From Pseudomonadota bacterium (GTDB taxonomy: Bacteria; Pseudomonadota; Gammaproteobacteria; Burkholderiales; Thiobacillaceae), in contig JAJZPG010000010.1 of the NCBI GenBank assembly GCA_021811235.1, positions 4,747 through 68,746 on the forward strand: a stretch of DNA of 64,000 nt. Direction: 5' to 3'. Below are positions 3,700 to 10,739 of this stretch, piece after piece. Both the position numbers and the translations under genes were made by a program. Each line of letters starts with the position of its first letter. The stretch's first letter is position 1. The notes under the pieces are model-generated. The model saw only the letters and a program-made list of their open reading frames with translations, made no database searches and was not told where the DNA came from.

Positions 3700-6600
3700 T
3701 CAGGCCAGACTCTCCAGCGCCCTCGGCTCCCCGATCAAATACCCCTGCACGCAATCCACCCCCATCTCGCCGAGCTTGGCGAGCATCTCCGCATCCTCGA
3801 CAAACCCCGCCACCGTCCGGATCCCGAGGAAACTCCCGGTCTCCAGGATCGACCGCACCAGCGCCTCGTCGATCATGCTGGTGCCGATCTCGCGCACCAG
3901 TGCGCGGTCGATCTTCAGGTAGTCGAGCTTCATGCTCTTGAGCCGCGTGTAGGAGCTGGTGCCGGCGCCGAATTCGTCGAGGGTGAAGCGGCAGCCGTGG
4001 CGCTGCATCTGGCGCATGAAGAGCTGGGTCTGAGCGTGGCCGTCGACGGCGTCGGCTTCGCTGATCTCGAAGATGAGCTTGTCGCCGGGGATGTCGCCGC
4101 GCGCCAGGTCGGCCAGCAGCAATTTGAGGAACAGCGGGTTGGTGACCGACTGGCCGGAGAGGTTGATCGAGAAGCCGCCGATATTCGCGGCTTTTTCGGG
4201 ATGCGCGCGCATCCATTGCAGCACGCTCTTCACCACCCAGCGGTCGATCTCGGTGACGCGCTGCAGGCGTTCTGCGACCGCGATCAGATCCCGCGTCGCG
4301 ATGCTGCGCTCGCCGTGGGTGACGGGGTGCAGCAGCACTTCGTAGTACAGCGCGGTGCGGGCGGGGTCGGCGACGGCGACGACCGGCTGGCAGTTCAGGC
4401 TGAGCTGGTTGTGGGCGAGGATGTCGGTCAGTTCGTGCGCCCATTCGGCCAGCGCCAGCACGCCGCCGGTGTCGGCTTCGCTGTCGTAGGTGACGACGGC
4501 CACGCCGGATTCGCGTGCGCGGGCGCAGGCGGCGTTGGCATTGTCGTAGTACGTCTCGGGGCTCAGGCAGTCGCTCGCCCACATCAGGCCGGCGGCGGCG
4601 TGGACAGGATAGCGGACGCCGCTGATCTCCTGCGGCTGGTCGGCGATGGCGTGCAGCAGCGCCTCGGCCTGGGCCTGGGCGGAGGCCTGGCCGGCCGCCT
4701 CGATCCAGAACGCGATGCCGGATTCGCCGGCGCGGGCGAGCAGCGCATTGGACGGCAGCAGCTTGGGCAGGAACTGCGCGTATTCGCGCAGGATGGGGGT
4801 GCGGATCTCGGCGCCCACGGTCTGGCCGGCGGGATTGCTGATGTCGAGCTGGACCACGCCGATGGCGTAGCCGCCGTCGGGGGTCTGGCTGCGCAGCCAG
4901 TTGCGGCGAATGGCGCGGAAGAAGCTCTTGCGGTTGGCGAGTCCGGTGGCAGGGTCGTGCGAGGCCTGCCACAACAGGTCGCGCTGCATCTTCTGGATCA
5001 TCGCGCTGTAGGAGCGGTCCATCAGCGGCAGTTCCAGGTCCTCGGTCCACTGCGCGTCGCCGTCTTCCAGCGACTGCAGCAGGTCCTGACGCTTGAGGTC
5101 GAGCTTCTTGATGCCGCGGTAGTTGGCGAACACGTAGACCGGCGGCTGGTCGCCGATCCAGATCAGGTTGAGCGGGCTGTCGAGCGACTTGAACTGCAGC
5201 CAGTCGCCGACGCGCAGGCGCTCGGCCAGGTTGTCCTGCGCCTCGGACAACGGCTCGGCGGCGGCGTCGGTGAGGCGGGCGGCGACGGGGGTGCGCGGGT
5301 GCTGCGATTTGTCCTCGTCGAACAGGACGCTGGCGAGCTGGTCGACGATGCGGTCCTGGGCGAACTTGTCGGCGCACACCTGGGTGAGCGCCTGGTCGAT
5401 GCGCTGCAGCAGCGTCTGGATCTCGGCGGTGGTGGCGCCGGCGTGCTCGGGGTCCAGCCAGACGCACAGCTGCTCCAGCACCCGCCAGGCTTCGCGCGCC
5501 TGGTCGCTGTCGCTGCCGTGGCGCATCTCGGCCATCAGCAGCACGTTGCGCCAGCCGCCGTTCAAAAGCTCGATCACGGCATTGGGGATCGGCCGTTCGT
5601 CCAGGCGTCCCAGCAGTTCGCGCAGGATGCGCTGCTTGGAGACTTCGGCACCCTGGCGGCCTTCGCACATTTCCTGCAGGCGGGAGATGCGCGCGGCGCG
5701 CTCGTTCAGGAGCGGTTTCACCACGCGCTCGAGCTGGGTGCGCGCCTCGTCGAACACGCCCGGGTTCTTGTCGGCTTCGGCGTTGATGCGATCGGTCCAG
5801 CGGTTCATCAGCCTGAGCAGGCGCTGGTCGGCGATCTTGCCGTCGTCGCCCGCCACCATGCTGATGCGGTCGAGCGTGTTCAGCACCTTGTGCGCCGGGT
5901 GGGCGGGCGAGCTCAGGAACTGCGGATCGGCCATCGCCAGCTTGATGAGGCTGGCTTCGAGCTGCTGGAAGAACGGCCGCATGCCTTCGCTGACCGATTT
6001 CTCGGCGTGCATGGTGTCGAACAGCGCGCCGAACATGTCGACCGAGCGCTGCATTTCCACGGTGACGGCGGGCGGCAGCGCGCCGGCCGCAGCGAGCCGT
6101 TGCAGTACCGGCGAATGCGCGACGCCGGGGGCGATGCCCGCCATCATCGCGGGTTGGCCGGAAGCGGCGGCCGGACCCTGCGCGCCGTAGCCCGGGGTCC
6201 CGACACCGGTGCCGGGGGACGGCGGCGCGGCACCCGTGGGGGCGGACGTCCCGGCCGCTGCGGCGGCCGGCTGGCCACGGAAGAAATCCATCAGCGAGCC
6301 GGTGAGCCGGCTGAGTGTGCCTTGCTGCGCGGCGGGCGCAGGGGCGGGCATGTCCGTCTGCCCGGGATGCGACGTATCGGGCGCGCTGCGTTCGGGCGTC
6401 GCCATGGGCGGGGGGTGCGCGGTTTCGGCTTCGGAGACCGGCAGCAGCGCGAGCAGTTCGGCATACAGCGGCGCCAGCTGCTCGGCCAGCACGTCGCGCA
6501 GCGTGGCATACGCCACCTGGCGCGCGCGCGCCAGCACCGGCACGTCCTGCAGGGCGGCGCGATAGGCGTGGCCGATGACGGCGGGGCCGAAGGGGTTGTT

Positions 6601-7419
6601 GCTGTGGTCACAGGCGAAACCGAACAGCTGGCCGATGCGCGGCTCGATGTCGGCCAGCTGTTCGCGGAACTGTTCCTCCAGCTTGTTGGCCTCGCTCGAG
6701 GTGGCGAGCCAGTCCTCGAAATCCAGTTCGTCGACCAGCGCCAGGTCGCCGCCCAGCGTGTCGCGGGTGGCCTGGGTCTGCACCGGGCGAGCCTGTTTCA
6801 GCGCGTCCAGCACCTGCTCCACGAAGCGGGCCTGCACGGTCGCGGCGTGCTGGGCGAACTCGTGCGATGCGCTCAACAGGCCGCTATGTTCGGCAATGCC
6901 GGAGGCATGGAGCGCAGCCGCGTTCAGCTTGTCGCCCAGCAGGCGCATCATCTGGTCGTGCACCTGCAACAGGGTTTCGCTCAGCAGGGTAGTGCTGGCT
7001 TCGCGCAGATGCGGGTGGGCATTGGAGGCGGGCAGGGCGGCGAGCTTCTGACGGTGTTCGGCCATGCGCAGCTTCTGCAGGGCGCGCAGCGCGTCGACCG
7101 GCTGCCGCACGAACGCAACGCCGACGCCGAGCGGGCTCAGGCGCTGCAGCCGGGCCGGCACGCGGAAGGTCTGCGAGGCGTTGATCGAAACCGGGGTGAA
7201 GACGATGTCGACTTCGGCGTCGGCGCGCCTGGCCAGGGCGGTGATCGCCGCCTCCGGATTGGTGAACTTGAGAAACAGGCCGCCGAGGCAGAAGTCGCGG
7301 ATTTCGCAGGCAATTTCATGGTGCCCCGGCTGCGTGATGATGGCCGCCTGCGATACCTGGAAGCGCTTGTCGCGCCGCAATTCCTGTCCGGCGTGCCGGT
7401 TGTCCGTGCCTTGAGCCAT
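3700..7419 (-). CDS. PilZ-DUF1631-GGDEF-EAL multidomain protein
   Basis: A 1239-residue cytoplasmic protein of the cyclic-di-GMP network. Residues about 15-120 form a PilZ-type domain (RRDKRF at the start, then RDFCLGGLFLKF). Residues about 150-760 are a long helical DUF1631 region closing with the family's LRVGDWLQF segment. A GGDEF-like domain begins at DPATGLANR, but the signature is replaced by GESGI, so cyclase activity is unlikely. The C-terminal EAL domain keeps EVLL, NLS, FEISE, LDEFGAG and LKID, but the usual AEGVE loop reads VAGFVED and lacks one conserved Glu. It is therefore more likely an effector or a weak phosphodiesterase. It is monocistronic. Confidence 0.85.
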   Translation of the reverse strand: MAQGTDNRHAGQELRRDKRFQVSQAAIITQPGHHEIACEIRDFCLGGLFLKFTNPEAAITALARRADAEVDIVFTPVSINASQTFRVPARLQRLSPLGVGVAFVRQPVDALRALQKLRMAEHRQKLAALPASNAHPHLREASTTLLSETLLQVHDQMMRLLGDKLNAAALHASGIAEHSGLLSASHEFAQHAATVQARFVEQVLDALKQARPVQTQATRDTLGGDLALVDELDFEDWLATSSEANKLEEQFREQLADIEPRIGQLFGFACDHSNNPFGPAVIGHAYRAALQDVPVLARARQVAYATLRDVLAEQLAPLYAELLALLPVSEAETAHPPPMATPERSAPDTSHPGQTDMPAPAPAAQQGTLSRLTGSLMDFFRGQPAAAAAGTSAPTGAAPPSPGTGVGTPGYGAQGPAAASGQPAMMAGIAPGVAHSPVLQRLAAAGALPPAVTVEMQRSVDMFGALFDTMHAEKSVSEGMRPFFQQLEASLIKLAMADPQFLSSPAHPAHKVLNTLDRISMVAGDDGKIADQRLLRLMNRWTDRINAEADKNPGVFDEARTQLERVVKPLLNERAARISRLQEMCEGRQGAEVSKQRILRELLGRLDERPIPNAVIELLNGGWRNVLLMAEMRHGSDSDQAREAWRVLEQLCVWLDPEHAGATTAEIQTLLQRIDQALTQVCADKFAQDRIVDQLASVLFDEDKSQHPRTPVAARLTDAAAEPLSEAQDNLAERLRVGDWLQFKSLDSPLNLIWIGDQPPVYVFANYRGIKKLDLKRQDLLQSLEDGDAQWTEDLELPLMDRSYSAMIQKMQRDLLWQASHDPATGLANRKSFFRAIRRNWLRSQTPDGGYAIGVVQLDISNPAGQTVGAEIRTPILREYAQFLPKLLPSNALLARAGESGIAFWIEAAGQASAQAQAEALLHAIADQPQEISGVRYPVHAAAGLMWASDCLSPETYYDNANAACARARESGVAVVTYDSEADTGGVLALAEWAHELTDILAHNQLSLNCQPVVAVADPARTALYYEVLLHPVTHGERSIATRDLIAVAERLQRVTEIDRWVVKSVLQWMRAHPEKAANIGGFSINLSGQSVTNPLFLKLLLADLARGDIPGDKLIFEISEADAVDGHAQTQLFMRQMQRHGCRFTLDEFGAGTSSYTRLKSMKLDYLKIDRALVREIGTSMIDEALVRSILETGSFLGIRTVAGFVEDAEMLAKLGEMGVDCVQGYLIGEPRALESLA

Positions 7420-7504: not shown

Positions 7505-7534
7505 TTGGCCAGGACTGCCGGCTTTTGGTAGACT
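7505..7534 (+). promoter_or_regulatory. Possible sigma-70 promoter of the aroG leader
   Basis: TTGGCC (7505-7510) and TAGACT (7529-7534) are separated by 18 bp. Transcription would start near 7541, just ahead of the aromatic leader peptide. The match is moderate and the site is placed mainly by its position. Confidence 0.35.
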
Positions 7535-7556
7535 GCCATGCATGATCCGTGCCGAG

Positions 7557-7610
7557 ATGTTCTTCTTTAGCCGCTTTTATCCCACGCCATGGGCGGTCGG
7601 GAGGCGCTGA
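7557..7610 (+). CDS. Aromatic leader peptide of aroG attenuator
   Basis: A 17-codon frame encoding MFFFSRFYPTPWAVGRR and then tga. Seventeen residues contain four Phe, one Tyr and one Trp, with three consecutive Phe codons directly after the start: the hallmark of a leader whose translation senses charged aromatic tRNA. An in-frame ATG at 7542 would add five residues (MIRAE); neither start has a strong ribosome-binding site. A perfect terminator hairpin follows 22 bp after the stop, and aroG, the first enzyme of aromatic synthesis, follows that. Inference: ribosome stalling at the Phe codons when Phe-tRNA is scarce would relieve termination. Confidence 0.78.
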   Translation: MFFFSRFYPTPWAVGRR

Positions 7611-7632
7611 AGCGAACAGCACGGCCTTCACG

Positions 7633-7660
7633 AAACCGCCAGCCCGCTGGCGGTTTTTTT
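7633..7660 (+). terminator. Attenuator terminator upstream of aroG
   Basis: Perfect 10-bp stem: aaaccgccag (7633-7642) and ctggcggttt (7647-7656) around cccg, followed by a T-run to 7660. The left arm's accgcc can instead pair with ggcggt at 7592-7597 inside the leader peptide, giving a mutually exclusive antiterminator. It sits between the leader peptide and aroG, where a terminator makes sense only as an attenuator. Confidence 0.8.
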
Positions 7661-7708
7661 GTTTACTGAGCCGCCGCCACGGGCCGACCCAAACGAACGG
7701 AGCCTGAC

Positions 7709-8785
7709 ATGTCTGCCACCCGAACCGACGACACCCGCATCGAGCAAAGCGGCGAACTGCTCGCCCCCATGCAGATCATGCGCGAACTGCGCGCCAGCGA
7801 GGCCGTGCTCTCCCATGTGGCGCACGCACGCAGCGCCATCCATGACGTGCTGCGCGGCGCGGACGACCGCATGTTCGTCGTGGTCGGTCCGTGCTCGATC
7901 CACGATCCGGCCGCCGCGCTCGACTACGCGCGCAAGCTGAAGCCGCTGGCCGACGAACTGGCGCACGACCTCATCGTGGTGATGCGCGTGTACTTCGAGA
8001 AGCCGCGCACCACCGTGGGCTGGAAGGGCCTGATCAACGACCCCCATCTGGACGAGAGCTTCGACATCAACGAAGGCCTGCGGCTTGCCAGAAAATTGCT
8101 GCTGGAAATCAACGAGATCGGCCTGCCGTGCGCGACCGAGTTCCTCGACCTGATCTCGCCGCAGTACATCGCCGACCTGGTGAGCTGGGGCGCGATCGGC
8201 GCGCGCACCACCGAGTCGCAGTCGCACCGCCAGCTGGCCTCGGGCCTGTCGTGTCCGGTCGGCTTCAAGAACGGCACCGACGGCAGCTTGAGGATCGCGG
8301 TCGACGCGATCAAGGCGGCCGCGGCGCGCCATCATTTCATTTCCATCACCAAGTCGGGCCACGTCGGCGTGTTCAGCACCTCGGGCAACGAGGACACCCA
8401 CGTCATCCTGCGCGGCGGCAAGGCGCCCAACTACGACGCCGCGAGCGTCAACCTGGCGTGCGGCGAACTGGCCGCGGCGGGCCTGCGCCAGCAGTTGATG
8501 ATCGACTTCTCGCACGCCAATTCGAGCAAGCAGTACCAGCGCCAGATCGACGTCGGCGCCGACGTCGCCGCGCAGGTGGCGGGCGGCGACAGCCGCATCA
8601 TCGGCGCCATGGTCGAGAGCCATCTGAATGCAGGCCGTCAGGACCTGGTGCCGGGACAGTCGCTGGAATACGCCAAGTCGATCACCGACGCCTGCATCGG
8701 CTGGGACGACACCGTCCCCTTGCTGCGCATGCTGGCCGACGCGGTGAAAAAACGCCGGCTGACCGTGCCGGCGGATGAGGAATAA
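7709..8785 (+). CDS. aroG: 3-deoxy-7-phosphoheptulonate (DAHP) synthase, AroG type
   Basis: Cytoplasmic class I DAHP synthase. It condenses phosphoenolpyruvate and erythrose 4-phosphate in the first step of the shikimate pathway. The 358 residues match the AroF/G/H family. Visible motifs are GPCSIHDP near residue 58, RVYFEKPRTTVGWKG near 92, GARTTESQSHR near 165 and the metal-binding region IDFSHANSSKQ near 270. The start ATG has an upstream ggag. The leader peptide and terminator just upstream indicate attenuation, and the Phe-rich leader suggests the phenylalanine-responsive isozyme. Confidence 0.96.
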   Translation: MSATRTDDTRIEQSGELLAPMQIMRELRASEAVLSHVAHARSAIHDVLRGADDRMFVVVGPCSIHDPAAALDYARKLKPLADELAHDLIVVMRVYFEKPRTTVGWKGLINDPHLDESFDINEGLRLARKLLLEINEIGLPCATEFLDLISPQYIADLVSWGAIGARTTESQSHRQLASGLSCPVGFKNGTDGSLRIAVDAIKAAAARHHFISITKSGHVGVFSTSGNEDTHVILRGGKAPNYDAASVNLACGELAAAGLRQQLMIDFSHANSSKQYQRQIDVGADVAAQVAGGDSRIIGAMVESHLNAGRQDLVPGQSLEYAKSITDACIGWDDTVPLLRMLADAVKKRRLTVPADEE

Positions 8786-8810: not shown

Positions 8811-8908
8811 TGGCGGGCCTCCCCGCATGGCAGCCCCGCGAACCTGGTCAGGTCCGGAAGGAAGCAGCCATAGCGGATCGTTACCAGTGCCGGGGTCAAG
8901 GCTCGCCA
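8811..8908 (+). ncRNA. ffs: 4.5S signal recognition particle RNA
   Basis: A compact bacterial SRP RNA. The conserved apical region cctggtcaggtccggaagga is followed by agcagcca, the Ffh-binding asymmetric loop and GNRA-type tip. The ends pair (tggcgggcc with ggctcgcca, one G-U pair), giving a closed hairpin of about 98 nt, a normal length for small-type proteobacterial SRP RNA. A T-run (taattttt) lies just downstream. It is located between aroG and dnaX; an ffs-dnaX neighbourhood is common in proteobacteria. Confidence 0.95.
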
Positions 8909-8920
8909 CTTAATTTTTCC

Positions 8921-9020
8921 AGGGGCTAGGAATTAGGATCTAGGGGCCAGGGTTCGCGGGGGGTGTCCGCGGATGCAGGCGCCGCATTCCCTAGATCCTA
9001 GCCCCTAGATCCTAGCCCCT
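8921..9020. repeat. Palindromic intergenic element, copy 1 (CTAGGGG units)
   Basis: About 100 bp between ffs and dnaX. The left arm (8921-8952) and right arm (8989-9020) are built of tandem aggggctaggatct-like units in opposite orientation, and the core contains a GC-rich hairpin (cgcgg...ccgcg). The same architecture recurs at 13940-14027 and, with ATTCAGG-type units, at 35446-35569. Confidence 0.75.
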
Positions 9021-9026
9021 GACCAC

Positions 9027-10739
9027 ATGACTGACCTCTTCGGCGATTCCGCTTCCCCCGCAGTTGCGCTGGCGCGCAAGTGGCGGCCGCGCGCGTTCGC
9101 CGACCTCAGGGGGCAGGAACACGTGGTGCAGGCGCTGTCGAACGCGCTGACCCAGGGCCGCCTGCATCACGCCTATCTGCTCACCGGCACGCGCGGCGTC
9201 GGCAAGACCACGCTGGCGCGCATCCTCGCCAAGTGCCTCAACTGCGAGACCGGCGTCACCGCGACGCCGTGCGGCGTGTGTTCGGCCTGCAGCCAGATCG
9301 ACGCCGGCCGCTTCGTCGACCTGCTCGAACTCGACGCCGCCTCCAACACCGGCGTCGACAACATGCGCGAGGTGCTCGACAACGCGCAGTACGCGCCGAC
9401 GGTGGGACGCTACAAGGTCTACATCATCGACGAAGTGCACATGCTGTCGAAGCCGGCGTTCAACTCCATGCTGAAGACGCTGGAAGAGCCGCCCGCGCAT
9501 GTGAAGTTCATCCTCGCCACCACCGACCCGCAGAAGATTCCGGTGACGGTGCTGTCGCGCTGCTTGCAGTTCAACCTGAAGCCGATGCCACCCGCGCTGG
9601 TGGCGCAGCACCTGGGCGACGTGCTGGCGCAGGAGCAGGTCGACGCCGAGCCGGCCGCCTTGACCCTGCTGGCGCGCGCCGCCGCCGGCAGCATGCGCGA
9701 CGCGCTCTCGCTCACCGACCAGGCGATCGCCTACGGCGGCGGCCGCATCGAGGCGGCCGGCGTCGAGGCCATGCTCGGCACGGTGCGGCGCGACTACCTG
9801 TTCGACCTGCTCGACGCGCTGGCGGCGCACGACGCCGACGCCCTGATGACGCAGGCGCGCACGCTTGCCGAGCGCGGCATCGCCTTCGACGCCGCGCTGC
9901 AGGATCTGGGCAACCTGCTCACGCAACTCGCCTTGATCCTGCACGCGCCCAATGCGGTCGAAGCCGGCATGGATGCCGAGCGCATGCAGCTCACTGCCGC
10001 GGGGCTCGACGCCGAAACGGTGCAGCTGTATTACCAGATCGCGCTGAACGGCCGCCGTGACCTGCCGTATGCGCCGGACGAACTGTCCGGTTTCAGCATG
10101 ACGCTGCTGCGCATGCTGGCCTTTGCGCCGGGCGGTGCGACAGCGGCACGGCCGGTGCCGGTGCGCACGGCACCCGTCGCGCGCCCCGAGCCGGTCCCGC
10201 GCGAGGCCGCACCGGAAGCGCCGCCTCCGCCCGCCCCCGTGCCGAGCGCGCCGCCGCGTCCCGAGGTGGCCGCGCCCGAACCGTCCGCTGCAGCGGACTA
10301 CCGTGCGCCCCCGGCCCCCGCGCAGGTCGCTCGCGAACCCGCCCCGCGCGGAGACTGGGATTGGCTCCGGGTCGTGTCCGAGCTGCGCCTCGGCGGCATG
10401 GCCAAGATGCTCGCCGACCACTGCGAGCTGGTGGCGCAGGCGGGCGATGCGGTGACGCTACGCGTCGGCGAGACGCACAAACATCTGCTCGACCGCGCCT
10501 ACCAGGACAAGCTGGTTGCCGCGCTGCGCGATACGTTCGGCGCGACGCTCGAAGTCAAGTTCGAGATCGGCGCCGCCGCCGAGCAGACGCCGCAGCAGGT
10601 GCGCACGCGCATCAAGGAAGCGCGCCAGGCCGAAGCCGTGGCCGCGATCGAAACGGATCCATTCGTGCGCGAGTTGGTCGACCAGTTTGGTGGCCAGATC
10701 GACGCCTCGACCATACAGCCATTAGGAGAATCGACATGA
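9027..10739 (+). CDS. dnaX: DNA polymerase III subunit gamma/tau
   Basis: Clamp-loader ATPase of the replicative polymerase. The 570-residue protein has an N-terminal AAA+ module with Walker [10 protein letters not shown] (about residue 54), a zinc-binding Cys cluster ([16 protein letters not shown]) and Walker B IIDEVHM. A Pro/Ala-rich linker (about 370-440) precedes the tau-specific C-terminal domain. No obvious A-run slippery site is visible, so a short gamma form by frameshifting is not evident. The stop overlaps the start of ybaB (ATGA), so the two are translationally coupled, with recR following. Confidence 0.97.

Follow-up and report, generated by a model that had tools for sequence, protein, structure and literature searches.

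A probable ribosome-mediated transcription attenuator ahead of the DAHP synthase gene aroG in a relative of Thiobacillus

Introduction

What is the role of a short reading frame rich in aromatic codons that occupies, together with a terminator, the gap between a divergent long frame (3700–7419, minus strand) and aroG (7709–8785, plus strand) in a bacterium close to Thiobacillus? The DNA analysed here (64,000 nucleotides of contig JAJZPG010000010.1, assembly GCA_021811235.1; hereafter the window, in whose coordinates all positions are given) had received a first-pass annotation that read this gap as an attenuator, with ribosomes stalling on Phe codons to control aroG. The Phe-rich codons, the terminator hairpin and the alternative pairing that it listed are all present in the sequence. 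We consider it very probable that the element is a ribosome-mediated transcription attenuator for aroG. This reading is based on sequence, conservation, geometry and computed exclusive pairings, from which we infer the start site of transcription, the stalling and the response to amino acids. Phe is likely to be part of the signal, as first proposed, but the whole signal is likely to be Phe plus Tyr (with Trp in some lineages) and not Phe alone.

The aroG enzyme and its genomic context

The 358-aa product of aroG matches the aroFGH model TIGR00034 with 532.8 bits (cut-off 173.2), the AroG-specific model NF006723 with 562.5 (cut-off 568, narrowly missed) and, for the AroH subfamily, model NF009396 with 506.9 (cut-off 463). 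By sequence, it is a 3-deoxy-7-phosphoheptulonate (DAHP) synthase whose isozyme type is not fixed by the subfamily models, AroG being narrowly missed and AroH exceeded. Its best PDB sequence matches include the Phe-regulated DAHP synthase. The gene is the sole PF00793 match in its genome, hence the only DAHP synthase found there, and no match to PF01474 (type II) was obtained in the same genome. PF00793 also takes in KDO8P synthase; kdsA gave no PF00793 match in this genome and may be absent from the assembly or have fallen below the first look. The best named relatives of the genome, each at 92%, are two MAGs, one from Thiobacillus and one from Thiobacillaceae. An SRP RNA gene lies directly downstream of aroG (8812–8910), as it does after aroG in two other loci (L143 and L033), and repeated, partly inverted GGATCTAGGGGC / CTAGATCCTAGCCCC stretches are found at about 8922–9020, between the SRP RNA gene and a long frame at 9027.

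The leader frame within the genus

The leader frame (7542–7610, plus strand) comprises 22 codons and a TGA, MIRAEMFFFSRFYPTPWAVGRR. The 17-codon frame originally described does exist as the 3' part of this frame, but its start at the internal ATG at 7557 does not hold: among the 22-codon leaders of the genus, ATG is found at this place in only 6 of 27, versus 27 of 27 for the ATG at 7542. This comparison relies on the genome of the window and 35 others, a search of which gave 28 loci having both aroG and its upstream region (L001–L028), the remaining genomes showing no match or a partial gene only; a further genome outside the 28 loci (G033) also shows the leader. The frame, the terminator and a GGCGG motif are present in all 28 loci (27 by pattern, plus L004), with a leader of 22 codons in 27 of them and of 21 codons in one. 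Both the ATG at 7542 and the TGA are kept in each of the 27 leaders of 22 codons, own-genus starts having been set to the conserved ATG. This conserved start, stop and frame suggest that the leader is translated.

Aromatic codons are retained to various degrees. Codons 7, 8 and 9 encode Phe (TTT or TTC) in 20, 23 and 26 of the 27 leaders, respectively, and the TTT TAT pair that we propose as control codons (Phe12 and Tyr13; 7575–7580, plus strand) is kept at 26/27 for each codon, one leader having His at codon 13 and another Cys at codon 12. Conservation does not extend to Trp at codon 17, where TGG is found in 1/27. On both strands of the 64-kb window, this is the sole frame of 14–35 codons that has at least six aromatic codons and a terminator-like hairpin 10–55 nt after it, according to criteria chosen after the finding had been seen. 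In the whole genome, the first of the two models described below (R1) gives one full-length match, three other matches being partial. The distance of 98 bp to aroG, initially assigned to the terminator, fits the leader stop codon instead (7610 to 7709), since the T run of the terminator ends 48 bp before aroG. A Shine-Dalgarno-like GGAG (7699–7702, plus strand) can be read ahead of aroG.

Promoter and probable leaderless start

A candidate -10 box, TAGACT (7529–7534, plus strand), is located 7 nt before the leader ATG, and a candidate -35 box, TTGGCC (7505–7510, plus strand; four of six positions matching the consensus), 18 nt before the -10 box. In the genus, a TAGACT or TAAACT box ends 7 nt (26 sequences) or 6 nt (2 sequences) before the leader ATG in 28 of 28 sequences, and TTGGC or TTGTC stands at the -35 place in 25 of 28. 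A strict promoter scan found no promoter. Beyond the genus, a best -10 box 6–9 nt ahead of the leader start was seen for 14 of 43 genus-level labels (13 of 43 under the score limit that the controls had), L095 having been left out of this count as it has no upstream DNA, and 5–9 nt before it in 18 of 41 members of a later set. As controls, other ATGs of the same regions gave 4/145 and aroG starts 2/44; the score is a simple one, using a matrix typed from general knowledge. In Burkholderia- and Massilia-like lineages, the box lies about 22–40 nt upstream of the leader start. Since the -10 box is only 6–7 nt from the ATG throughout the genus, the leader mRNA is probably leaderless in Thiobacillus and, as a prediction, in several other lineages.

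Predicted mutually exclusive pairings

Four strands can be recognized around the end of the frame. Strand 1, TCCCACGCC (7580–7588, plus strand), pairs with strand 2, GGCGGTCGGGAGGCGCTG (7592–7609, plus strand), in a hairpin 1:2 (7580–7602, -9.9 kcal/mol) that also belongs to the consensus structure of 25 sequences; within strand 2, GGCGGTCGGGAGGC is invariant in 25/25 sequences. Strand 2 can instead pair with strand 3 (7617–7640, plus strand) in an antiterminator 2:3 (fold of 7592–7640, -24.5 kcal/mol), and the 3' part of strand 3 can pair with strand 4 in an intrinsic terminator 3:4 with its T run (7632–7660, plus strand; fold of 7630–7660, -17.5 kcal/mol), whose hairpin (7632–7657) has 11 pairs and a loop of 4, the T run extending to 7660. 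The annotated pairing between ggcggt of the leader and the left arm of the terminator is borne out, GGCGGT at 7592–7597 being complementary to ACCGCC in that arm. Computation indicates that pairings 1:2, 2:3 and 3:4 are mutually exclusive.

Folding was then considered as a function of the position of the ribosome, on the assumption that the RNA becomes accessible 12 nt downstream of the first base of the A-site codon; kinetics were ignored. For a ribosome with codon 12 or 13 in the A site, and as long as strand 4 is absent, the antiterminator comes out as the best fold (-25.9). Once the stop codon occupies the A site, the ribosome covers strand 2 and leaves only the terminator. Of the stalling codons initially put forward, the TTC/TTC/TTT run at codons 7–9 is not the best placed for control of the pairing, this being TTT12-TAT13. 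The fold model also favours 2:3 for a ribosome at codons 6–11, so early stalls may relieve termination as well. Once the RNA is complete, the calculation yields the terminator whichever of the ribosome positions is tried; therefore, antitermination would be kinetic, as it is in known attenuators. Folding energy by itself sets 7540–7712 only slightly apart (z = -1.88, with 6 of 200 shuffles reaching an energy as low).

The existence of such strong alternative folds is also what one would expect of a riboswitch, in which a metabolite or a protein would bind the RNA and control the terminator, the frame being incidental. This would nevertheless leave the aromatic codons at a fixed place ahead of a gene of the aromatic pathway without a role. 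Besides, in 32 aligned elements RNAalifold finds no conserved structure other than the terminator, and no Rfam riboswitch reaches its gathering score. A riboswitch is therefore extremely unlikely, and attenuation by a translating ribosome remains the preferred reading.

Conservation of the pairing and of the geometry

In all 52 aligned elements, the GGCG of the leader and the CCGCC/GGCGG of the terminator are invariant. The peptide encoded over GGCGG differs between lineages (AVG, AVE, PLAD, PLAE, GGRE or RRRK), so that it is the RNA, rather than the peptide, that is kept. These data bear on the proposal that the conserved entity would be a functional small protein, or a small leaderless mRNA acting in trans, attenuation being secondary. 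The probable leaderless start would suit it, as would the products of the Sinorhizobium meliloti attenuator, rnTrpL and peTrpL, which act in trans according to excerpts of PMC7298713. However, comparison between families shows conservation of the RNA but not of the peptide beyond its aromatic run, and although the C-terminal codons are nearly fixed within the genus, this same stretch is strand 2. Such a function is thus very unlikely to be what is primarily maintained, and the element is better viewed as an attenuator.

Several counts concern the pairing between strand 2 and the left arm of the terminator. In their observed register, 89.6% of cells are paired, versus 16.5–55.4% when the strands are slid. 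Double-sided changes amount to 12, versus 5.2 in shuffles (0/500 reach 12); pairs with a double change (173/500) and further pair types (65/500) do not exceed the shuffles. Of the seven pairs in this count, four are constant, and the outer two fail to pair in 16 and 20 of the 52 elements. The base preceding GGCGG can pair with the one following CCGCC in 29 of 44 genus-level representatives, for 23.1 expected by permutation (3/20,000). Pairing of the flanks of strands 2 and 3 is stronger with their own partner (-7.94) than with a swapped one (-6.98; 37 of 20,000 permutations as low; 44 genus-level labels). This effect is weaker across 19 family-level groups (511/20,000), and with single picks per family the permutation fraction has a median of 0.052 and a maximum of 0.133. 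Fewer than half of the sequences gave values below 0.05, namely 11 of 26 own-genus sequences for spacer-shuffle energies and 14 of 44 for flank shuffles. Because related rows are not independent, and with the elements of the later sets having been found with the model itself so that pair counts lean towards it, these statistics are supporting and non-decisive, and the covariation support for the antiterminator is moderate.

The geometry of the element is kept across families. The last aromatic codon, searched for within 48 nt of GGCG, starts 10–20 nt before GGCG in 90/90 elements (85 of them distinct) and exactly 14 nt before it in 54; Tyr13 of the leader in the window has this commonest spacing. 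In the later set, which shares at least two genomes with the 90 elements, the last aromatic codon lies 11–23 nt before GGCG in 41 of 41 elements measured. Forty-seven had been entered and six were dropped, one for an imperfect terminator and five for lacking GGCG by pattern; of these five, four have GGTGG, which still pairs with CCGCC through G-U, and one has GCGG in the leader opposite CCGCC. According to folding, this spacing would let the ribosome cover strand 1 and still leave strand 2 available for pairing. The masking of strand 1 and freeing of strand 2 by a stalled ribosome is the defining geometry of ribosome-mediated attenuation. Among 44 genus-level representatives, the last aromatic residue is Phe in 26, Tyr in 14 and Trp in 4, and, over a stretch of at most 10 codons that closes with the control codon, aromatic residues account for 66%, a figure that arises partly by construction, as frames were picked for aromatics.

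Spread across the order and the class

Among 80 loci from named genomes (L031–L110), the terminator pattern is found ahead of aroG in 32, 30 of which have a complete aromatic frame; two more (L038 and L104) have an aromatic frame before a different terminator. Burkholderia, Caballeronia, Cupriavidus, Massilia, Janthinobacterium, Variovorax and Tepidiphilus are included among the leader-bearing genomes. A first model (R1), built from 32 elements, matches in 59 of 200 genomes of the order, some matches being bare terminators; the 30 full-length loci fetched all adjoin AroG (L146 being judged by its place). The covariance model R2, built from 52 elements, was run on 399 genomes of the order and matches in full length at 111 places, spread over 110 of them; matches restricted to the terminator end of the model were not counted as elements. 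Of the 111 copies, 105 lie just upstream of AroG: 62 at most 300 nt upstream of a listed AroG match, 9 previously seen beside AroG and 34 of 40 newly fetched, in which AroG is downstream on the same strand. As 293 of the 399 genomes have AroG-like genes and about two thirds of these 293 lack a detected element, the element is common but patchy. No element was found in the 500 nt upstream of aroG in nine members of the order. Class-wide, 274 genomes yielded two further copies ahead of AroG, L164 and L165, both from a single family that does not belong to the order.

The refuting observation named in advance, i.e. relatives without the aromatic codons or the hairpin, is thus not what was found: both are widely conserved, which supports the attenuator reading proposed from the start. 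It also bears on the idea that the hairpin is a constitutive terminator that merely dampens aroG or ends an unrelated transcript, the aromatic frame being there by chance. CCGCC...GGCGG terminators are common in these genomes, and many partial matches to the model are such a terminator alone. A bare terminator, however, needs neither the frame, its start and stop, the aromatic codons nor the GGCG spacing, all of which are conserved across families. Furthermore, as the adjacent long frame points away from aroG, there is no visible transcript from upstream that would need an end here. This makes a constitutive terminator most improbable as an account of the conserved element, which we continue to regard as an attenuator.

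In the other six of the 111 full-length matches, AroG does not follow: what follows is an unknown protein in four cases and a 2-isopropylmalate-synthase-like frame in one, and the sixth match looks spurious. The first four (L198, L199, L200 and L203, from genomes G152, G558, G226 and G588 of one genus) resemble the aroG element in their aromatic leader (e.g. MITFSAVFNAYFYWYRSSRRLQGASLD), their GGCGG and a GCCGCC terminator, but stand ahead of an uncharacterised protein of 204–206 aa, two copies of which gave no Pfam match at cut-off. L202 (G613) has a Leu-rich leader (MELFIAALLSLLLLSRL...) and a terminator before the 2-isopropylmalate-synthase-like frame (named by eye), as would an ordinary Leu attenuator. 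Outside the order, two of four matches were judged false: L167, where AroG is lacking and a recR-like frame (named by eye) follows, and L168, a bare terminator.

Some loci depart from the common arrangement. In three genomes, a first aroG copy has the leader and a second copy does not (L113 in G057, L128 in G004 and L129 in G010). In Candidatus Burkholderia humilis (L067), the leader frame is disrupted while GGCGG and the terminator are retained, making it a natural broken copy. This locus was dropped from the 92 that carry the terminator pattern, as was L047 (distant terminator, no frame); L029 was dropped because its contig starts within aroG, and for L165 and L159 the leader start was chosen manually.

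Relation to known attenuators

The leaders of E. coli pheA and trp are leader-peptide attenuators with 1:2, 2:3 and 3:4 pairings. The element described here shares with them the regulatory codons, the 1:2 hairpin, the 2:3 antiterminator and the 3:4 terminator, but differs by its target, aroG, by its mixture of Phe and Tyr codons (Trp in some lineages) and by a leader probably devoid of a 5' UTR. Its match to the Rfam Phe_leader (RF01859) is below threshold (20.2 bits for a gathering score of 55, E = 0.48), and at gathering scores the loci of 20 relatives show only SRP RNA and a tRNA. Seven leaders gave no match to NCBIfam leader-peptide models, and Pfam gave one sub-threshold, unrelated match, HMM searches being weak on such short peptides.

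Three other systems come close. The uORFC-13-1 motif ahead of aroF in Acholeplasma, a proposed uORF attenuator, likewise has at least one Phe codon, a downstream DAHP synthase gene and a terminator; compared by description, it differs in being reported only from Acholeplasma and environmental sequences and in having a ribosome-binding site (excerpts of PMC8632094). In S. meliloti trpL, the 5' end of the attenuator RNA is the leader ATG, making it leaderless, but the system concerns tryptophan and trpE(G) in an alphaproteobacterium (excerpts of PMC7298713). In Bordetella parapertussis, an attenuator is predicted before gyrA>serC>aroQ-pheA>tyrA (PMC1173090, Table 7); this is also a predicted attenuation of aromatic genes in a betaproteobacterium, but the operon is another one and the excerpts of that paper mention no such leader ahead of a stand-alone DAHP synthase gene. 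No aroG leader attenuator was found described for these bacteria in the open-licence literature, whose coverage does not extend to the older survey of Vitreschak et al. (2004), which may contain one, and excerpts of PMC5343134 and PMC2965389 make no mention of an aroG leader element. The mechanism is thus a classical, known one, the probable distinguishing traits being the leaderless start and the mixed aromatic signal.

A model for the control of aroG

Combining these features, the following model can be proposed. Transcription would start at or beside the leader ATG, and the ribosome would trail the polymerase through the 22 codons. When charged tRNA-Phe and tRNA-Tyr are plentiful, the ribosome would reach the TGA at 7608 and cover strand 2, allowing the 3:4 terminator to form before aroG. 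When either tRNA is scarce, it would wait at Phe12/Tyr13 and cover strand 1 only; strand 2 would then capture strand 3 in an 18-bp antiterminator and the polymerase would read into aroG. If the leader is untranslated, the 1:2 hairpin would leave strand 3 free and termination would be favoured. DAHP synthase would thus be made only when Phe or Tyr run short.

More tentatively, and with a probability that we put well below even, this element may exemplify a large undescribed family of attenuators in this Burkholderiales-like order and some of its neighbours, in which the leader mRNA would integrate the supply of aromatic amino acids on the entry enzyme of the pathway. The leader would be leaderless in many lineages, 70S initiation at the 5' end without any ribosome-binding site coupling the ribosome to the polymerase from the first nucleotide, and the terminated RNA could in addition work on its own as a small leaderless mRNA, like that of S. 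meliloti.

The attenuator would provide control of the entry enzyme of the shikimate pathway in a large group of bacteria, and the alignments allow such leaders to be annotated. The natural variation of their Phe, Tyr and Trp codons, spacing and 5' UTR offers a comparative test bed for the choice of signal by attenuators, and may also inform how leaderless translation couples to transcription.
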